64,000 nt of DNA from contig VFZN01000001.1 of NCBI GenBank assembly GCA_016871195.1, forward strand, positions 1 through 64,000, given 5' to 3'. The notes under the pieces are model-generated. The model did not search any database and had not been told where the DNA came from. It worked only from the letters and a program-made list of their open reading frames with translations. Position numbers and translations under genes: made by a program. Positions within the stretch are counted from its first letter, which is position 1. Each line of letters starts with the position of its first letter. Of the stretch, positions 559 to 9,432 are shown one piece after another. This DNA is from Acidobacteriota bacterium (GTDB lineage Bacteria > Acidobacteriota > Vicinamibacteria > Vicinamibacterales > UBA2999).

Positions 559-800
559 GCGGTCGCCTCCGGTCGCCGCCCGTGGCCCCCCGTGTTGGAG
601 ACATTGTGGAGACGGCGCCCACCCCCCTACATCCTGCCCCCGGGGTGGGTCGGGGGGCGTGAAAGCCGGCGCACAATTTTCCCGGCCCTCCACCCTCGGG
701 CCGACGGGGCTTCAGGCACCTATGTGCTACGGATGATCTGGTAAGCTTCCTTTCGTCTCCCGTGGGTCTCCACAGGAAGACCGGAACAAAGAGGGTCTCG

Positions 801-3623
801 ATGCGTCTCAATCGTCGTGTGCGCAGTGGTGTTGCTCTGGTGCTCGCGGCGCTGGGTGCCGTGATCTTGGCGACCGAGCAGACGAACTCTCAGGTGGGGC
901 AGCTGGTGATTTCGCCCTCCACCATACGATTCGGTAGCGACTCGGCCGATGCCGTCACACTGGGAGCGTCCGCCACGCAGACGGTCACGCTGAGGAATAC
1001 TGGCACGTTGTACACCCTCAATGGCTACTGCTCAGGGCCCTCTGGTGATTCGTTGCCGATTGTCGGCGGCACCTGCCGCAGCGATGCGAACTTGGGCGGC
1101 GTCACCCAGCTTGGTCCAGGGGAAAGTTGCACGTACGAATTCCGCTTCACTCCCACGGTCAAGAAAATCCACAGCGGCAGCTGGCAGTTCGGGATGAGTT
1201 CGCCACTCGCAATCGGCACGTGCGATGTGTTCGCGAGCGTGGGGTGGTCGGCGCAGGCCCGCGGCACGACGGCGCTCAGCCTGACTCCATCGTCGTTTAA
1301 CTTCGGTTCGGTTCCTGTGGGTAGCAGCGGGCCGGCTCAGACATTCACGCTTACGAACCAGTCCCCTTCCACGCTTTACGGCTGGTCGGGAGGCACCAAA
1401 GGTCCAACCGACGTCAAAAAAGTGGGAGGGACATGCAAGTACGGCTCGGACGATTCCGTCGGCACCGTGACATCACTTGCACCGGGGGAGAGCTGCACGT
1501 TTGTGTTCCGGTATTCGCCCGAAGCGTTGCGCCCCGGCCCGCAATCGGGCTCCGTGTTCATGGCGATGTTGTCGCCTGGATTCACCTACTCTGATGAGCA
1601 GGCCAATCTGGCGTGGACAGGCACGGTGACGGCCTCCCATGCGTTGAGTTCCACGCAGTACGAAATGCCCGCATCCGGCGGGTCGCGCACCGTGACGATG
1701 ACCGCCGTAGCGGCAGGGCTGCCGTGGACGGCGTCGGTAATCAACCCCGGCAACAATGCCTGGCTGACGGTTACCACGTCGCCCGCGAGTGGGACGGGGA
1801 ACGGCACCGTGGCATTTGCAGTGGCGCCGACGACCAGAACGAGTGAGCGTATCGCCGGTGCCTACGTGGCCGGCATCTCGGTCAGCTTCATTCAAGCCGG
1901 CGCGGCGGTGTCGTTCACGCCGGAGTATCCGGGGATTGGCCCGACGGGTGGCACGAAGCAGATCACGGTAACGAGCACGTCGAGCGCGTTACCGTGGACG
2001 GCGACGAGCAGCGCGGCGTGGCTGACGTTCGACGGGGCGACGAGCGGGACGGGGAGCGGGAGCGTGACGGTGAAGGCCGGGCCGCTGCCGACGTCGACGG
2101 CGCGGACGGCGAGGGTGACGGTGGCGGGCAAGACGGTGACGGTCACGCAGTTTGCGACGGAATATTCGTTTGCGCCGAACGCGGTGACGATTCCAGGCGA
2201 GGGCGGGACGCAGACGGTGACGTTCACCAGCGCCTTGGGCAGCGCGTGGACGGCGACGAGCACGGCGCCGTGGCTGACGGTGACGCCGACGAGCGGCGCG
2301 GCCGGCACGGTGAACACGACGATGACGCTGACGGCGGCACGCACGACGTCGGACGCGGCGCGTACGGCAACGGTGACGGTGGGCGGGCAGGCGCTGACGG
2401 TGACGCAGCCCGGACTGTCGGCAGCAGGGCTGCCCTCAGCGCCGACGGGGCTGACGGCGACGGTGGCGGGCAGCACGGTGACGTTTGACTGGGTGGCGCC
2501 GCTGACGGGCGAGCCGTTGAGCCGGTATGTGCTGGAGGCGGGACTGGCGCCGGGGCGGTCAGACATCGCGTCGCTGCATGTGACGGACGGGACGCGATTT
2601 GTGGTGGGCGGGGTGCCGAACGGGCGGTTCTTCGTGCGGGTGCGGTCGGCGAACAGCTTTGGCGCGAGCGGGCCGTCGAACGAGGTGGAGGTGCTGGTGG
2701 GCAGCACCGGGACGGCGCCGCGCCCGCCGACGGGGCTGACGGTGACGGTGACGGGGGCGAGCCTGCAGCTGACGTGGATCGCGGCGAGCACAGGCGATGC
2801 GCCGACGGGGTACACGCTGGAGGCGGGCTCGGCGCCCAGCCAATCGAACATCGCGACGGTGAACCTTGGACCGTTTACGAGCTTCAGCGTGGGCGGGGTG
2901 CCGAACGGGCTGTATTACGTGCGGGTGCGGGCGTCGAACAGCTTCGGGGTGAGCGGGCCCTCGAACGAAGCGTCGTTCAGCGTGGGCGGGGTAGCGGCGG
3001 CGCCGGGCGCACCGAGCGGGCTGACGGCGACGGTGACGGGCGGGACGGTGGCGCTGGCGTGGACGGCGCCGGCGACGGGCGGGCCGCCGACGGAGTATGT
3101 GCTGGAGGCGGGGACGGGCCCAGGGCGGTCGGACATCGTGCCGGGGATTGCGACGGGGAGCACGCTGACGGCGTTTTCGGCGGCCGGGGTGCCGCCGGGG
3201 ACGTATTACGTGCGGGTGAAGGCGATGAACATCCTGGGGCTGAGCGCGGCGTCGAACGAGGTGCGCTTAACGGTGACCTCGGCGGATGTGCCGGCGCCGA
3301 CGCTGGTCACGGGGACGGCGGTGCCGCTGGCGGAGACGGACGCGCTGGGGGCGCCGACGTCGCTGGCGGGGGTGGTGGAGGCCGATACGGTGGCGCTGCA
3401 GTGGGGCGCGCCGGTAAGCGGGACGGCGTTTACGCAGTATGTGCTGGAGGTGCGGGCGGCACAGGCGGCGGATGACGCGGCGTGGACGGTGGCGGCGACG
3501 AGTGCGACGCCGACGCTGCGGCTGGCGGACGTGCCGGCCGGGGCGTATTACGTGCGGGTCCGCACGACGGACGGGACGCAGGTCAGTCCGACCTCCAACG
3601 CGCTGCTCGTCCTCGTCCCCTGA
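801..3623 (+). CDS. Large surface protein with anchor-D-like, BACON and Fn3 repeats
   Basis: The protein has 940 residues. I chose the ATG at 801 (MRLNRRVRSG) over an ATG 39 bases upstream because a signal peptide or N-terminal anchor follows at once, at about residues 8-30. Domains in order are two HYDIN/choice-of-anchor-D-like modules (about 33-155 and 155-280), three BACON-type modules (about 282, 369 and 451, each with a 'P-x-x-GG' start and a W-T/W-L core), and four Fn3 repeats starting near residues 543, 637, 732 and 848. The Fn3 repeats share the phrases YVLEAG and YYVRVR. Such proteins are exported and bind carbohydrate or protein surfaces; no catalytic motif is visible. From about 1,930 on the DNA is highly repetitive (GACGG/GGCGA words), which suggests repeat expansion. 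A hairpin follows the stop. Confidence 0.75.
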   Translation: MRLNRRVRSGVALVLAALGAVILATEQTNSQVGQLVISPSTIRFGSDSADAVTLGASATQTVTLRNTGTLYTLNGYCSGPSGDSLPIVGGTCRSDANLGGVTQLGPGESCTYEFRFTPTVKKIHSGSWQFGMSSPLAIGTCDVFASVGWSAQARGTTALSLTPSSFNFGSVPVGSSGPAQTFTLTNQSPSTLYGWSGGTKGPTDVKKVGGTCKYGSDDSVGTVTSLAPGESCTFVFRYSPEALRPGPQSGSVFMAMLSPGFTYSDEQANLAWTGTVTASHALSSTQYEMPASGGSRTVTMTAVAAGLPWTASVINPGNNAWLTVTTSPASGTGNGTVAFAVAPTTRTSERIAGAYVAGISVSFIQAGAAVSFTPEYPGIGPTGGTKQITVTSTSSALPWTATSSAAWLTFDGATSGTGSGSVTVKAGPLPTSTARTARVTVAGKTVTVTQFATEYSFAPNAVTIPGEGGTQTVTFTSALGSAWTATSTAPWLTVTPTSGAAGTVNTTMTLTAARTTSDAARTATVTVGGQALTVTQPGLSAAGLPSAPTGLTATVAGSTVTFDWVAPLTGEPLSRYVLEAGLAPGRSDIASLHVTDGTRFVVGGVPNGRFFVRVRSANSFGASGPSNEVEVLVGSTGTAPRPPTGLTVTVTGASLQLTWIAASTGDAPTGYTLEAGSAPSQSNIATVNLGPFTSFSVGGVPNGLYYVRVRASNSFGVSGPSNEASFSVGGVAAAPGAPSGLTATVTGGTVALAWTAPATGGPPTEYVLEAGTGPGRSDIVPGIATGSTLTAFSAAGVPPGTYYVRVKAMNILGLSAASNEVRLTVTSADVPAPTLVTGTAVPLAETDALGAPTSLAGVVEADTVALQWGAPVSGTAFTQYVLEVRAAQAADDAAWTVAATSATPTLRLADVPAGAYYVRVRTTDGTQVSPTSNALLVLVP

Positions 3624-3690: not shown

Positions 3691-3868
3691 TTGGTGCTTC
3701 TCCCGCACTCCTCGTATTGTTATAAAGCAAGACTCCCAGGAAGGACACCCTGGGTCTTGCGGGTTCATGGTTGGTCAGACAGAGCGATACAAGAGCGACA
3801 TGGGACGCCTACTTCCTCTGCGGGCCCTATTCTTCATCGTGCTTGATCCGATCTGGTGGACGGTTTAG

Positions 3869-4190
3869 TTACGCTGCGTAAGTCATCCTTTGTCCGTACG
3901 CTGCCGGATTCATTCGCCCCGCAGAGACTGCCGACGCCGTTGCGCGAGGAACGCTTTGTTGTTGTCTAGCGACTGGGTCGTGGCTTCGCCGGAGCTGTCA
4001 AACTACAAGCCGAGTTCGCTCTTGACCGTCGAGAAGAACTCCTCCATCACCGCGTTGTCGTAACAATTGCCTCGGCGGCTCATGCTACAGGTGATGCCGC
4101 GCGTCGCCAAGACCTCGCGCTAGTCCTCGTTGGCGCCGTCGCCGGGTTCGTGAGCACGGCCCTGCTGCGTCGCTGACGCGACCGATACCG
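3869..4190 (-). mobile_element. Degraded IS3-family transposase (OrfB C-terminal end)
   Basis: On the minus strand the sequence reads [18 protein letters not shown], then [19 protein letters not shown]. This is the hallmark end of the IS3 OrfB integrase core, including the catalytic glutamate of the DDE triad (E in MEEFF). A stop codon interrupts the frame just before REVLA and another follows SELG. A frameshift lies before the terminal MNPAAYGQRMTYAA, which ends at the TAA at 3869. Upstream of about 4131 the match decays to RRRSRAVL-like debris. The N-terminal half, OrfA and inverted ends are not visible. The element is dead and marks past transposition in this accessory stretch. Confidence 0.75.
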
Positions 4191-4285: not shown

Positions 4286-4350
4286 GGGCTCGGGATTGTC
4301 GTCAATGCAGGCGCGCGGGGCCCTCTGGGGGCCACGGGGGCCTGCTCACT

Positions 4351-4377
4351 GGGAGGCCGCTAATACGGCCTATCGTC
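4351..4377. repeat. 27-bp hairpin repeat, copy 1, at the XRE gene break
   Basis: This 27-bp segment is identical to 5837-5863. Its core is an inverted repeat, AGGCCG-CTAATA-CGGCCT. Read on the minus strand it adds the residues TIGRISGLP to the truncated XRE protein. The flanks of the two copies also resemble each other: a GGCCT...TCAC block precedes both. It sits exactly where the regulator's coding similarity stops. Confidence 0.7.
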
Positions 4378-4532
4378 ATCTTGCCGCGCTCCAGCTTCGA
4401 CAGCAGCGCGGGCGACAGTCCGGAGTGCCGGCCGAGGTCCACCAGCCCGAGCTTCTTCTTGAGTCGCAGCGCCTTGAGCTTGCCGCCAATCTCGTAGCGG
4501 AAGAGTTCGTTGTCCAGCGTGCGGTGAGCCAC
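4378..4532 (-). pseudogene. Truncated XRE-family helix-turn-helix regulator
   Basis: From a GTG at 4532 the product starts MAHRTLDNELFRYEIGG and carries a textbook XRE helix-turn-helix, KLKALRLKKKLGLVDLG followed by HSGLSPALLSKLERGK. Intact relatives of this type continue with FPTLPTLLRIA and a cupin domain and reach about 200 residues or more (family knowledge). Here similarity ends abruptly after ERGKM, where the 27-bp repeat begins, leaving roughly 50 authentic residues. It may bind DNA poorly or not at all. The stretch 4533-4811 upstream has no other gene that I can recognise. Confidence 0.65.
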
Positions 4533-4811
4533 AGTTCGAAGACTGTGCTACTACGACAAGATTTTGCTCAATAAGAACACGGTGGTGCTCGGCGGCACGG
4601 CGCGAGCCGCACCTGCACGGCCAGCATCTGAACACGTGTTCCTGTGAAGCAAATATCGGCGGCCTTTTGTCTGCTGGCTCACACGACTTTCGAAGTGACG
4701 GCATTTAACTCTGCAGAAACAAATTATTCCTATAAGCTGTGGTTATCGCGCCCTGAGTTCGCCGGTAGCGGCCAACATCGATGAGCGCTCTCTGAGAAAG
4801 GTGTTACGGGC

Positions 4812-4997
4812 ATGTTCAAGATCCAGGACTTCATGATTCTCGGCGCCGCGTTCATCTCCTTCCTGTTCTCGGTGTCGCTGTGGTTCGGCGCCTTCTGGCC
4901 GCCAAACCGGGAGGCCGGCGTCTTCGTCGGGCTGTGGGTGCCGTCAATCCTGGCGGCAGGCATCTATGTTCAGCTGCTGCGGACCGCAAGGCAATAA
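4812..4997 (+). CDS. Small membrane protein (61 aa), first gene of a three-gene unit
   Basis: The product is a 61-residue inner-membrane protein with two hydrophobic segments, about residues 8-28 and 36-56. They are separated by a short charged loop containing PPNREAG. An AAAGG Shine-Dalgarno-like sequence lies eleven bases before the ATG. The next micro-ORF starts three bases after the stop, and it is in turn overlapped by the FAD oxidoreductase remnant, so the three were once an operon. I do not recognise the family. Adjacency to the oxidoreductase hints at a small accessory subunit; that is inference. Confidence 0.55.
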   Translation: MFKIQDFMILGAAFISFLFSVSLWFGAFWPPNREAGVFVGLWVPSILAAGIYVQLLRTARQ

Positions 4998-4999
4998 CC

Positions 5000-5152
5000 A
5001 TGGATCTCTGGATTCTGACGGTTGGTTTCGTGACCTTCGGCCTGTTGATGGGTGGGTTGTTTTTCACAATCAGGGAGTTTCGGCAGATGAAGCCGGGCGA
5101 TACGGACGGTATCCGTCAGGCGATGATGGCGCGCGACTACCAGCCGAAATGA
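5000..5152 (+). CDS. Small membrane protein (50 aa), second gene of the unit
   Basis: The ATG at 5000 gives MDLWILTVGFVTFGLLMGG, a single N-terminal transmembrane helix. A charged cytoplasmic tail follows (REFRQMKPGDTDGIRQAMM). It starts three bases after the previous stop, and its own stop overlaps the oxidoreductase start as ATGA. The compact spacing and good charge pattern argue that it is real despite its size. Function is unknown. Confidence 0.55.
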   Translation: MDLWILTVGFVTFGLLMGGLFFTIREFRQMKPGDTDGIRQAMMARDYQPK

Positions 5153-5816
5153 CAGCCGGACCTCGGATTCCTGTCTCGCCATTGAGCGCCGCCGAAAAAA
5201 CAGTGCTGATCGTGGGCGGCGGCCTGGCCGGCCTGGCCTGCGCCATCCGGCTGCAGGAAGCCGGTGTCCGCACCACCATCTTCGAGCGCAGTTACGACGT
5301 CGGCGGGTCAGGACCGATCCAATGGAGGGGTTTCTGCTGGACCGCGGGTTCCAGGTGTTTCTGGACGCCTATCCCGAAGCGGGACACCTGCTGAACCAGC
5401 AGAGCCTGGACCTTCGGGCATTCAAACCATGCGCCTTGATCTACACGCCGTCCGGCATGCAACGCGTCATGGATGTAACCCGTGAACCCCGGCACCTCAC
5501 TGCAAGCGTTCTCGCTCAGGTCGGGTCGTTGGCTGACAAGCTGCGGGTCGCGGCCCTCAAGACCCGGCTGACGAGTGTCTCTGTTGAAGACATCGCTGCG
5601 CACGAGGACATGACTACGGCGCGCTATCTCGAGCGGGCGGGATTCACGCCATCGATGGTCGACGGCTTCTTCCGCTCTTTCTATGGCGGCATTTTTCTCG
5701 AGCGGGATCTCCACACCTCGAGCCGAATGTTCGAGTCCACGTTCAAGATGTTTTCACAGGGCAGCGCCACGCTGCCGTCGAAAGGAATGGGGGCTGGGTC
5801 TGAAAGCTGGGTCTGA
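5149..5816 (+). pseudogene. FAD-dependent oxidoreductase (amine-oxidase type), frameshifted and truncated
   Basis: The start overlaps the previous gene as ATGA. The N-terminus has the Rossmann dinucleotide fold VLIVGGGLAGLACAIRLQEA followed by FERSYDVGG. At about 5,308 the frame is lost. The continuation, RVRTDPMEGFLLDRGFQVF, is in another frame and runs to LPSKGMGA near 5,795. Relatives are about 420 residues long (NAD(P)/FAD-dependent oxidoreductases of the phytoene desaturase/protoporphyrinogen oxidase class). Here the C-terminal half, including the second FAD-contact motif, is gone. After the break comes a 13-bp near-tandem duplication (GCTGGGTCTGA twice) and then the 27-bp repeat. The frameshift could be a sequencing error; the truncation could not. 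Confidence 0.7.
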
Positions 5817-5836
5817 GCACAGGCCTTCCGTTCACC

Positions 5837-5863
5837 GGGAGGCCGCTAATACGGCCTATCGTC
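5837..5863. repeat. 27-bp hairpin repeat, copy 2, at an oxidoreductase/glycosyltransferase junction
   Basis: Identical to 4351-4377, with the same AGGCCG/CGGCCT hairpin. On the left lies the broken FAD oxidoreductase. Immediately on the right begins an in-frame glycosyltransferase C-terminus. Two unrelated genes are therefore joined through this element. Confidence 0.7.
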
Positions 5864-6033
5864 CGGATGCCACCGCCTGCGCCGCCGCCATGATGCGCCT
5901 CGTCGCCGACCCGACCCTGCAGCGGGCGCTGCGCGACGGCGCCCGTCGCTGGGCCGAGCGCCGCACCTGGGAGCACGAACTCGACCGGCTCGACACCTCG
6001 TACCGCGAGGTGCTCCGCCGGTCGGCACGATGA
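5864..6033 (+). pseudogene. C-terminal fragment of a group 1 glycosyltransferase
   Basis: The frame reads MMRLVADPTLQRALRDGAR, then RWAERRTWEHELDRL, and ends at 6033. This is the terminal helical segment seen after the GT4/GT1 nucleotide-sugar-binding domain (compare LMTDPERRARFGEAGRR in the intact glycosyltransferase ending at 33896). All catalytic parts are missing. The fragment starts precisely at the 27-bp repeat. It is presumably non-functional. Confidence 0.6.
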
Positions 6034-6080: not shown

Positions 6081-8921
6081 CTAGAACGTCAGCTTCGCGC
6101 CAATGCGCGCCAGACGCGGCGGCACGACACTGAGCGGACGGTTGTACGACGTGCCAGAGCTCCACTGCAGGTTCTGGGCCGGGTTCTCGTTGAACATGTT
6201 GTAGAGGTCGAAGAAGATCCCGAGCTTGCGGAACGTGCCCAGGCCGACTTCCTTCTCGACGCGCAGGTCGGTGATGACGATCGCGTCCTGGCGCTGCGTG
6301 CCCATGGGCTCGGCCAGGATGCGGACGTTGCCCACGAAGAAGCCGGTCGCCGCAAATGTGCGGCCGAACGGGTACCCCTGCTGGTAGCGCACCATCGGCG
6401 AGACGTTCACGCCCCACGGCGCCTGATACGTCCCCGAGAGCTTGAAGTTCGCGCGCGTGTATTCGAAGCGGCCGTCGTCGGTGTTGATGAGGTCGTTCGG
6501 TGTTGCCGGCAGCGTGTTCTGACGCACGGCGTTCCCCTGGAAGGCCGAGAAGCCGTTGTCGTAGCTCTTGGTGATGCCGTATGAGATGAGCGCGCTCCAG
6601 CGGTTGCTCATCCGCTTGGTGCCGGTGATCTCGAACGTGTGGAAGTCGCCGGTGTTCAGATCCGAGTTGCGCGTCTGGTTAACGACCGGCAGCGCACGGA
6701 ACGCCGGATCGAGATCGAAGGCCTGGATCGTGCCGCCGTCGTCAGGGGTGCCGATACGGCCGTCCGGACCGGGGTCCCGCACCGGGAACGGCACCGTGAA
6801 GGCACTGATCGGCCGGTTGATATTCTCGCGCTGGTAGAGATTCCGGTTGCCGCGCCAGACGTAGCCGGCGCGCACGCCGAAGTTGGCGATCACCTCGCGC
6901 TCGAGGAAGAGCGCGATCTCGTCGGTGCGCGCGTTCTTCAGGTTCGGGTCGATCGACTCGGCGGCGCGGCCGCCGCGGCTGTCGATGAGGCGGCCTTCCT
7001 CGCCGGCATCCCAGCGGTTGTTGTTGTTCGTGTCGGTCCAGGCGTGTCGCCGCCACCAGGCCGGTGAATTTTCGCTGACGTTGAAGACGAAGTCGGCGCC
7101 TGGGTTCCACCAGTACTGGCCGTAGTTGGCCTTGAGCACCGTCTTCTGGTCGCCGAAGACGTCGTAGGTGACGCCGATGCGGGGCGCGAAGAGATTCCAC
7201 GCGATGATGCTGTCGTTGGCCGCGAACCGGATGGCCGTGGGGTTGAAGCGGCTCACGCCGTGTTCCTGCTCGGGCAGGTAGGCGCGGTAGCGATCCATGC
7301 GCACGCCGAGGTTCAGGGTGAGGCGGTTGCTCACCCGCCACGTGTCGTTCACGAACGTGCCGTAGGTGCGCAGCTTGCCGACCGCTTCGCCCGGCTGGAA
7401 CAGATACACCTCGATCTTCGCGCCGTTGTTCAGCACGTGGAGAACATCGTCTTCGTAGCCGTCCACGTAGATGTCGGTGACCGCCTCGTCGAAGACCTCG
7501 CCGCCGGCCTTGAAGTTGTGCTCGCCCAGCCAGCCGTTCTTGAAGTAGCTGACCGTGCCCAGAACCTGATCGCGCTTCCTGTCGCGCCCCCAGTTCCTGT
7601 TCCGTCCCGCCAGCAGGTTGTTGCCGATGTCCTCGTAGCGCCGGCCGGTGCCGTTCGGCGTGTTGTCCCAGTCGTAGCCGTACTGGCCGACGCGTACTTC
7701 GGCGAAGGCGTTGGCGCCGAGCACGCCGTTCCACTCGGCCTTGTGCACCCAGGCCCAGAAGTTCTGGTTCCAGGTGGTCTCGAGCGTGTTGATGCCGGTG
7801 TCGACGCCGAGCAGGAACGAGTCGAAGCGCTGCGGCTGCAGCTTCTGCGAGGGCTGCGAGTAGGCGATGAACTTGTTGTTCTGCGACAGGTTGTAGGTCA
7901 GCTTGCCGCTGAAGTTGTTGAGGATGGTCTGCTGCGGGCCGGCCGCGTAGTTGGCGAAGCGGGCCTTGATGTCCTGGTTGCGATACGACCCGTACCACCA
8001 GATCTTGTCCTTGACGACGTAGCCGCCGAACCCGAGGTTGTTGTCGCGGTACGACGACAGGCGGTTCAGAGCTTCGGCCGCCAGATTACCGCTGCCGCGC
8101 AGGCCGCGGGCGATCTGGTCGTCGTCGATGTTCGTGCCCTGCCAGCTCTCGTGCGAGTAGCCGCCGAAGTAGGTGCCGCGGAACTGATTGCCGCCCGACT
8201 TGCTGATGAACTGCGACTGCACGCCGGGGGTCGACGCCTCGGCGGTGTGCGCCGCCTGGTTGATGACCACTTCCTCCATGGCGCCGACGTCGGGATAGTT
8301 GCCGAAGGCGCCCGTGGCCTCGGTGGCGTTGATGCCCTCGATGCTGGCCCGCACCTGGCCCGAGGTGCCGTAGGAGACGAAGGCCTGCTGCGTGCCGTTG
8401 GTGCTGCCGCCGACGTCGATGCGGCTCATCTGCACCGACGGCGAGCCAGCCAGCAGCGAGAAGTAGTCACGCGAGGTTGGCAGCGCCGCGAGCTGCTCGG
8501 CGTTGAACGTGGTGCCCACCTGCGTGGCCGACGTGTCGACGACCGGCGACTGTCCGGTCACAGTCACCGACTCCTCGAGGCTCGCCACCTTCATCTCGGC
8601 GTTGATGGTGCCGGTGAAGCCGGTGCTGATCCGGATGCCTTCGTTGCGCACCGTCCGGAAGCCGGCCAGCTCGAACTGCACCACGTAGTCGCCCGGCGGC
8701 ACGGCGGTGAACCGGTACTGCCCCTCGGCGTCGCTCACGGCGGTTCTCTCGCCCATCATCGCCGGGCTCGTGATGGTGACGGTGACGCCCGGCATCACGG
8801 CGCCGGTGTCGTCCAGCACCCGGCCGTTCATGGCACCCGTGCCCGACGTGGTGGCTTGCCCGAAGGCGACCGAGATGTCACCGAGAACCAGCAGGAATGC
8901 AATGACCAGGCTGCGACGCAT
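6081..8921 (-). CDS. TonB-dependent receptor with N-terminal carboxypeptidase-regulatory-like domain
   Basis: This 946-residue outer-membrane protein begins with a signal peptide (MRRSLVIAFLLVLG..., cleavage about residue 21). A carboxypeptidase-regulatory-like beta-sandwich follows at about 28-115 (GRVLDDTGAVMPGVTVTI). Then comes a plug domain at about 120-240 (SVTVTGQSPVVDTSATQ) and a long barrel ending in RIGAKLTF, the terminal aromatic expected for BAM insertion. The ATG at 8921 has a strong GAGGAGG seven bases upstream. An EF-hand-like loop (DTNNNNRWDAGE, about residues 630-641) and a DGRIGTPDD loop near 720 suggest calcium-binding outer loops. A canonical TonB box is not obvious. The substrate is unknown; relatives in acidobacteria are thought to import oligosaccharides or peptides. 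Confidence 0.85.
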   Translation of the reverse strand: MRRSLVIAFLLVLGDISVAFGQATTSGTGAMNGRVLDDTGAVMPGVTVTITSPAMMGERTAVSDAEGQYRFTAVPPGDYVVQFELAGFRTVRNEGIRISTGFTGTINAEMKVASLEESVTVTGQSPVVDTSATQVGTTFNAEQLAALPTSRDYFSLLAGSPSVQMSRIDVGGSTNGTQQAFVSYGTSGQVRASIEGINATEATGAFGNYPDVGAMEEVVINQAAHTAEASTPGVQSQFISKSGGNQFRGTYFGGYSHESWQGTNIDDDQIARGLRGSGNLAAEALNRLSSYRDNNLGFGGYVVKDKIWWYGSYRNQDIKARFANYAAGPQQTILNNFSGKLTYNLSQNNKFIAYSQPSQKLQPQRFDSFLLGVDTGINTLETTWNQNFWAWVHKAEWNGVLGANAFAEVRVGQYGYDWDNTPNGTGRRYEDIGNNLLAGRNRNWGRDRKRDQVLGTVSYFKNGWLGEHNFKAGGEVFDEAVTDIYVDGYEDDVLHVLNNGAKIEVYLFQPGEAVGKLRTYGTFVNDTWRVSNRLTLNLGVRMDRYRAYLPEQEHGVSRFNPTAIRFAANDSIIAWNLFAPRIGVTYDVFGDQKTVLKANYGQYWWNPGADFVFNVSENSPAWWRRHAWTDTNNNNRWDAGEEGRLIDSRGGRAAESIDPNLKNARTDEIALFLEREVIANFGVRAGYVWRGNRNLYQRENINRPISAFTVPFPVRDPGPDGRIGTPDDGGTIQAFDLDPAFRALPVVNQTRNSDLNTGDFHTFEITGTKRMSNRWSALISYGITKSYDNGFSAFQGNAVRQNTLPATPNDLINTDDGRFEYTRANFKLSGTYQAPWGVNVSPMVRYQQGYPFGRTFAATGFFVGNVRILAEPMGTQRQDAIVITDLRVEKEVGLGTFRKLGIFFDLYNMFNENPAQNLQWSSGTSYNRPLSVVPPRLARIGAKLTF

Positions 8922-9009: not shown

Positions 9010-9395
9010 CGGGAACGTGAGCGTCGGCCAGCAGCCGGGCGTGAGACGCTGGCGGCCGCGCGCGCAGCAGGGGAATCGCGTCGAACAGGCGTGAGGCCGG
9101 CGCCGTTGAACGCGGCAAGCCGCCACACCGGCGCGCCCGGCGCGTCGAGCTTCTCGCGGACGGTGCCGCCACCGGCCACGAACTGGCCGTGCACGAGATA
9201 CGAATTGCCGAAGGCATCCCCGGCGCTGTCATCCGCTGTCAGGCTGGGCACGCCAGCGTCGGCCCAGATCAGGCAGCCATCGAGGTCGATCTTGGCGCAG
9301 CCGGCGCGGCTCGCGATGATCGACTGGCCGGTCATGAGGATGGTCCCGTCGGGAGTCAGCCACGTGATCTGCCCCAGCGTCTGATAGAAACCGTC
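9010..9395 (-). pseudogene. Remnant of a secreted beta-propeller-type protein
   Basis: A frame open from a TGA near 9395 reads QTLGQITWLTPDGTILMTGQ, later KIDLDGCLIWADAG, then TVREKLDAPGAPVW. The repeated pattern of 'K-x-D-x-x-G-x-x-x-W' resembles blades of PQQ/SBBP-like propellers. There is no start or signal peptide, and beyond about 9,080 the sequence turns arginine-rich and unprotein-like. I treat it as a fragment of a larger lost gene. A degenerate copy of the 27-bp repeat lies just outside its upstream edge, at 9409-9432. Confidence 0.4.
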
Positions 9396-9408
9396 ATGTC
9401 ATCGGAAC

Positions 9409-9432
9409 AGCCACTTCATACGGACTATCGAC
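9409..9432. repeat. Possible degenerate third copy of the 27-bp repeat
   Basis: The segment agrees with the right-hand part of copies 1 and 2 at about three quarters of positions, allowing one 1-base gap. It shares TACGG and CTATCG in the same order. The hairpin is no longer perfect. Like the other two it borders a broken reading frame. The similarity could be chance. Confidence 0.3.

Follow-up and report, generated by a model that had tools for sequence, protein, structure and literature searches.

We observed the same 27 bp, GGGAGGCCGCTAATACGGCCTATCGTC, at 4351-4377 and at 5837-5863 of the window (the whole stretch of 64,000 nucleotides that was analysed), letter for letter, as a preliminary description of this DNA had stated. 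The identity of the two copies extended to 32 bp if one mismatch was allowed, and the 18-bp core matched twice in the window when up to 3 mismatches were tolerated, against 0.03 expected. An alignment of copies from the genome and its relatives showed the 27 bp to be the right end of a longer element. The degenerate third copy that had been suspected at 9409-9432 is real and divergent, and spans 9379-9432; it scored 16.3 bits with a broader profile, the maximum in 40 shuffled windows being 8.9, and had an E of 7e-4 with a separately built model. All three copies have one common orientation. They are listed in Table 1, under the reading that we argue for below, along with the genes around them. 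An Rfam scan of the window gave a tRNA as its sole match.

Table 1. Predicted oriIS ends, neighbouring genes and the duplicated unit (positions are those of the window unless a locus and contig are given)
Feature	Position	Strand	Details
Predicted oriIS end, copy 1	4346-4377	+	left-truncated, 32 bp, 28.8 bits, ends ..CCTATCGTC; truncated XRE gene is the right flank
Hairpin AGGCCG-CTAATA-CGGCCT, copy 1	4354-4371	+	single-strand DNA fold, -6.6 kcal/mol, z -2.4
XRE-family regulator, 5' part, cut off at copy 1	4378-4532	-	HTH_31, E 1.5e-5
FAD-dependent amine oxidoreductase, 5' part, frameshifted, cut off at copy 2	5173-5794	+	PF01593, E 4e-6
Predicted oriIS end, copy 2	5795-5863	+	69 bp, 49.4 bits; CTGGGTCTGA-type left end to ..CCTATCGTC
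Hairpin AGGCCG-CTAATA-CGGCCT, copy 2	5840-5857	+	single-strand DNA fold
Glycosyltransferase-like gene, 3' tail	5864-6033	+	weakly homologous to the C-terminal ends of longer proteins from relatives
Outer-membrane beta-barrel / TonB-type receptor gene, complete	6081-8921	-	PF25183, E 1.7e-37; PF13620; between copies 2 and 3
Predicted oriIS end, copy 3, divergent	9379-9432	+	GTCTGATA...TTCATACGGACTATCGAC
609-bp unit	L003, about 915-1524, contig C3		beside tRNA-Phe
609-bp unit	L005, about 915-1524, contig C10		beside tRNA-Leu

An intact XRE gene of 195 aa was found in a relative (G032), with 87% DNA identity, and the similarity to it sets in again right where copy 1 ends (..AAACATCTTGCC in G032 vs ..CGTCATCTTGCC in the window). 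The breakpoint that had been placed at 4377 was correct, the homology to intact relatives ending precisely there. The FAD oxidoreductase was 88% identical at the DNA level to an intact 442-aa gene of G032, with homology stopping at 5794. Because the homology runs to this position, the junction with the glycosyltransferase-like gene is best described as a 69-bp insert (5795-5863) standing between the two truncated genes. The junction itself had been recognised earlier, but the insert is this 69 bp and not merely the 27 bp. The glycosyltransferase-like tail begins where copy 2 ends, and its N-terminal part was not found left of 5795. Pfam gave no match for this tail, and the glycosyltransferase label is a reading of the sequence by eye.

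The segment from about 4377 to 5794 was colinear with one intact G032 locus (XRE, small genes, FAD oxidoreductase), and the rest of the XRE and FAD oxidoreductase genes was absent from the own genome, which is 98% complete. The segment is thus a fragment with a copy of the end on either side. Elsewhere in the window, 762-3623 encodes a long protein of secreted type whose domains are repeated (the DNA has several 285-bp repeats). An IS3-type transposase remnant at 3835-4135 was 84% identical to a fuller copy on contig C3 (L003 1525-2840), which lies directly right of an oriIS copy.

We further estimated the boundaries of the element, whose consensus from the aligned copies of the genome and relatives is C-T-GGGTCTGAGAAC..TTCCGTTAACC..GGAGGCCG-CTAATA-CGGCCTATCGTC. 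To the right of ..TATCGTC the copies diverge at once. We set five right flanks against homologues without the interruption (the XRE site; two flanks with intact counterparts in G028, G040, G035, G041 and G037; an IS701-like gene; and a G032 radical-SAM copy), and homology began immediately after GTC in 5/5. At the XRE site the terminal C is common to element and gene by chance. The GTC can be assigned to the element, since the base before the junction varies in the empty sites. The right flank started with a pyrimidine in 48/62 cases. No IS91-type GAAC/CAAG target tetranucleotide was seen at the right flank (62 flanks; the empty sites share none), which lowers the claim of close IS91/IS801 kinship, but not that of the rolling-circle class.

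The left end is mostly fixed at C[T/A]GGGTCTGA; in most copies the information at this boundary was 1.38 bits at the C of CTGG (CTGGGTCTGA) and at most 0.37 beyond. The left extent varies from 20 nt to more than 700 nt with the right end fixed. In the relative G001, 10 identical copies of a 96-bp unit were present, most of which had unrelated sequence on either side. Terminal inverted repeats were not found, the left CTGGGTCTGA and the right CCTATCGTC not being inverted repeats of one another. Most copies are miniature elements that have no terminal inverted repeats. The hairpin pairing was retained in 90% of cells (18 copies), and no compensatory changes or covariation were seen across these 18 copies.

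A model search of the own genome gave 10 ends, 3 of these in the window, and there were many more in relatives, so that the preliminary description is not refuted by a lack of further copies. Relatives had 20-45 ends, with 23 to 45 matches each in G001, G032, G037 and G040, of which the weakest are uncertain. The copies were clustered far above random (in G032, 20 neighbour pairs at ≤12 kb vs 4.4 expected). Neighbouring copies were in the same orientation in 38 cases vs opposite in 12 (two-sided binomial p 3e-4, the pairs not being fully independent). On G001:C214, six near-identical copies, five of them the exact 96-bp unit, lie in one orientation over 34 kb (74-34575), with large unrelated segments between the copies. 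A 13-kb contig (VGZI01000170.1; L045, L047) of a lake MAG labelled Planctomycetota carries 8 ends, 7 in one orientation, reflecting either cross-phylum spread or mis-binning. MAGs labelled Acidimicrobiia (L046, L049-L053) seem to match genomes in the family or order of the window genome, and their gene content (TonB-type receptors) suggests that the label is wrong.

Some copies share several hundred bases of leftward sequence, and a transposase frame there ends ~110-150 bp before the repeat. The ORFs directly left of these long copies were identified by Pfam as Y2_Tnp (PF04986, E 3e-12). About 40 Y2_Tnp loci were taken from relatives for a terminus search, and the terminus model matched about 100-350 bp 3' of intact or partial transposases, on the same strand, in at least 14 relatives. 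Two of the transposases (L113 and L115) matched NCBIfam ISCR_clade_Ia (NF052416) with E of 1e-93 and 1e-86, at scores below the curated ISCR clade Ia cut-off, and that of L115 was ~40% identical to the ISVsa3 (ISCR2) and ISCR1 transposases over 93% of the query. The transposases of the relatives show an HUH motif (HVHALVL) and have just one conserved tyrosine (CRYALRP), as is typical of ISCR.

The ends could also be compared directly. The end motif of the element matches the ISCR1 and ISCR2 ends (GTTTATACTTCCTAT / CTAATACGGCCTAT-CGTC). In plasmid records the 3' ends are GCGTTTATTCTTCCTATACG for ISCR2 and GGTTTATACTTCCTATACC for ISCR1, and the ISCR1 oriIS has been published as GTGGTTTATACTTCCTATACCC (PMC13023784). 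A member from the relatives (L142) ends in GTTTATGCTTCCTATCGTC, and the window copy reads GCTAATACGGCCTATCGTC. The linked Y2/ISCR transposases in relatives and the motif common to the ISCR1 and ISCR2 ends have led us to conclude, with a probability of roughly 0.88, that the repeat belongs to an ISCR-like HUH rolling-circle transposon of the IS91 superfamily, of which it forms the oriIS, the 3' terminus where replication starts. The own genome gave no match to Y2_Tnp, and the ends alone remain there. Present-day activity in this genome is unlikely for that reason, and its transposase-less end-pieces would be mobilisable only in trans. A search of viral contigs found neither relatives of the transposase query nor the exact repeat pattern.

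The repeat had initially been described as a REP/MITE-like small mobile element. It is indeed mobile and MITE-like, most copies being short and transposase-less with both ends defined, but it is not REP-like, as the linked transposase is Y2. REP/RAYT-type palindromic repeats are moved by a Y1 transposase, and the short hairpin, the GGGAG that adjoins its stem and the many dispersed copies would fit them. However, the same sequence forms the 3' terminus of Y2/ISCR-type transposons, the stem is not strictly conserved (it is lost in some members) whereas the tail TATCGTC is, and the array copies lie kilobases apart and not in BIME-like pairs. We consider a REP/RAYT origin to be extremely improbable.

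Arrays in one orientation, in which each gene fragment is ended by a hairpin site, could also be formed by a site-specific recombination site (integron attC-like or dif/Xer-like) that gathers gene cassettes, and the 28-bp left half of the element resembles a dif layout. But the RYYYAAC/GTTRRRY boxes of attC were absent from the consensus and the alignment, the likely chromosomal dif has only a loose layout in common with the repeat, and the repeat ends are transposon termini, which together make such a site very unlikely. A dif/Xer reading based on an 11+6+11 layout was dropped when the repeat turned out to lie 3' of Y2 transposases. The plausible chromosomal dif, TCCGATAATAATTATTATGTTAA, is at G000:C5:92741-92763 (L080), and a tyrosine recombinase gene (C5:86090) lies ~6 kb away.

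We also considered whether assembly or binning had gone wrong at a short repeat. The assemblies are MAG-like and several contigs end near copies. However, the copies differ in sequence and form long internal arrays within contigs, the same architecture, with diverged copies, is seen in numerous genomes that were assembled independently, and another genome has an intact locus with which the window segment is colinear. There is hardly any probability left for an artefact.

The ISCR-like end is likely to be the cause of the chimeric junctions, as had been proposed. The clearest sign of movement in the own genome is a duplicated 609-bp unit, made up of a phage-capsid fragment (PF05065, E 7e-9) and an end, that occurs at two sites with 95% identity and with unrelated flanks on both sides. 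Plain insertion fails to explain the junctions, since the other half of the interrupted genes was not found within about 4-9 kb leftward in the tested cases, and no site with both flanks contiguous (a simple empty site) was seen among the loci compared. A tblastx search for the missing halves of the interrupted genes was dominated by noise. When flanks were joined in G001, an ORF-spanning test showed no excess over frame-shifted controls, and one case looked like two genes.

We suggest a capture mechanism in which an ISCR-type transposase, acting in trans, would nick at ..TATCGTC, and single-strand displacement would proceed leftwards from the nick. Displacement would usually halt close to the end, at a CTG-type site, which would produce miniature copies; at times it would read through into flanking DNA and produce a unit of captured fragment plus oriIS. 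Such a unit might then be inserted elsewhere, often beside a resident oriIS copy, leaving gene fragments bounded by oriIS copies. We regard capture as a reasonably probable origin of the chimeras. For IS801 in its natural host, one-ended products were either solo right-end fragments or right ends with adjacent DNA (PMC3189936).

The main rival for the junctions, which leaves the identity of the element unchanged, is adjacent deletion. Here a miniature oriIS inserts simply, and the DNA rightward is then deleted to a random point, by transposase action or by replication slippage at the oriIS end, so that the element is left joined to a distant gene fragment. This agrees with sharp right junctions located randomly within genes, with missing halves that are not nearby, and with the loss of the XRE and FAD remainder from the genome. 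It also agrees with the 96-bp unit of G001, which has two fixed ends and still separates what by eye are seemingly different genes (in one example, a membrane protein vs apolipoprotein N-acyltransferase-like sequence). However, deletion leaves unexplained both the same-orientation clustering and the identical capsid-plus-end unit at two sites, and the XRE-FAD segment, being intact as one locus in a relative, would need deletions on both sides. We hold adjacent deletion to be somewhat unlikely.

A further form of capture would be integron-like, with circles of captured DNA and a miniature oriIS going preferentially into resident oriIS copies, and the transposase supplied in trans. The insertion of circles at a resident oriIS would explain the same-orientation arrays and the segments that start exactly at an oriIS end. 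For a resistance region, a circular ISVsa3 intermediate has been proposed to insert at a copy that is already resident (PMC8386438). This version is doubtful at present, and we put it forward tentatively.

The class of element is already known, and it is the clustered arrays that are unusual; in the open-licence literature searched, we found no report of miniature ISCR-type oriIS elements in chromosomal arrays. ISCR1 and ISCR2/ISVsa3 resemble the present family in having a related transposase (~40% identity), an oriIS-like end downstream and the motif TTAT-N-C-TTCCTAT in common, and the model accepted for ISCR is single-ended capture of adjoining DNA. In contrast to ISCR, most of the copies seen here are miniature end-pieces that lack a transposase and lie clustered in the chromosomes of environmental bacteria, and they terminate in CGTC (CGGC in some members), whereas ISCR ends in ACCC. 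The one-ended products of IS801/IS91 are similar in being solo right ends, or right ends plus adjacent DNA with a variable left end; however, the IS801 fragments are 229-679 nt with GAAC-type left borders (PMC3189936), whereas ours, commonly 57-96 bp long, have a CTG-type border on the left, and their right flank lacks a conserved target tetranucleotide. Helitrons have a hairpin that lies just a few bases in from the 3' end and capture flanking sequence by read-through, but they use a eukaryotic RepHel transposase, and their 3' hairpin is a terminator while the IS91-type 3' end is an origin (PMC4778049). MITEs and REP sequences are likewise short, multicopy, non-autonomous and hairpin-bearing; here no terminal inverted repeats were seen, and the parent element is a rolling-circle transposon of Y2 type instead of one with a DDE or Y1 transposase.

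ISCR elements have been blamed for the spread of many resistance genes. As of 2018, there was no experimental demonstration of ISCR transposition (PMC6218425). The natural end-pieces with their captured DNA amount to dozens of independent events from which the cleavage point, the termination signal and the capture length can be read, and the relatives supply a set of transposases open to laboratory testing. If integron-like capture is true, it would mean same-orientation arrays of random genome fragments extending over tens of kb in the chromosomes of environmental, probably acidobacterial, bacteria. ISCR-type end-pieces would explain the chimeric gene fragments that confuse annotation in these genomes.
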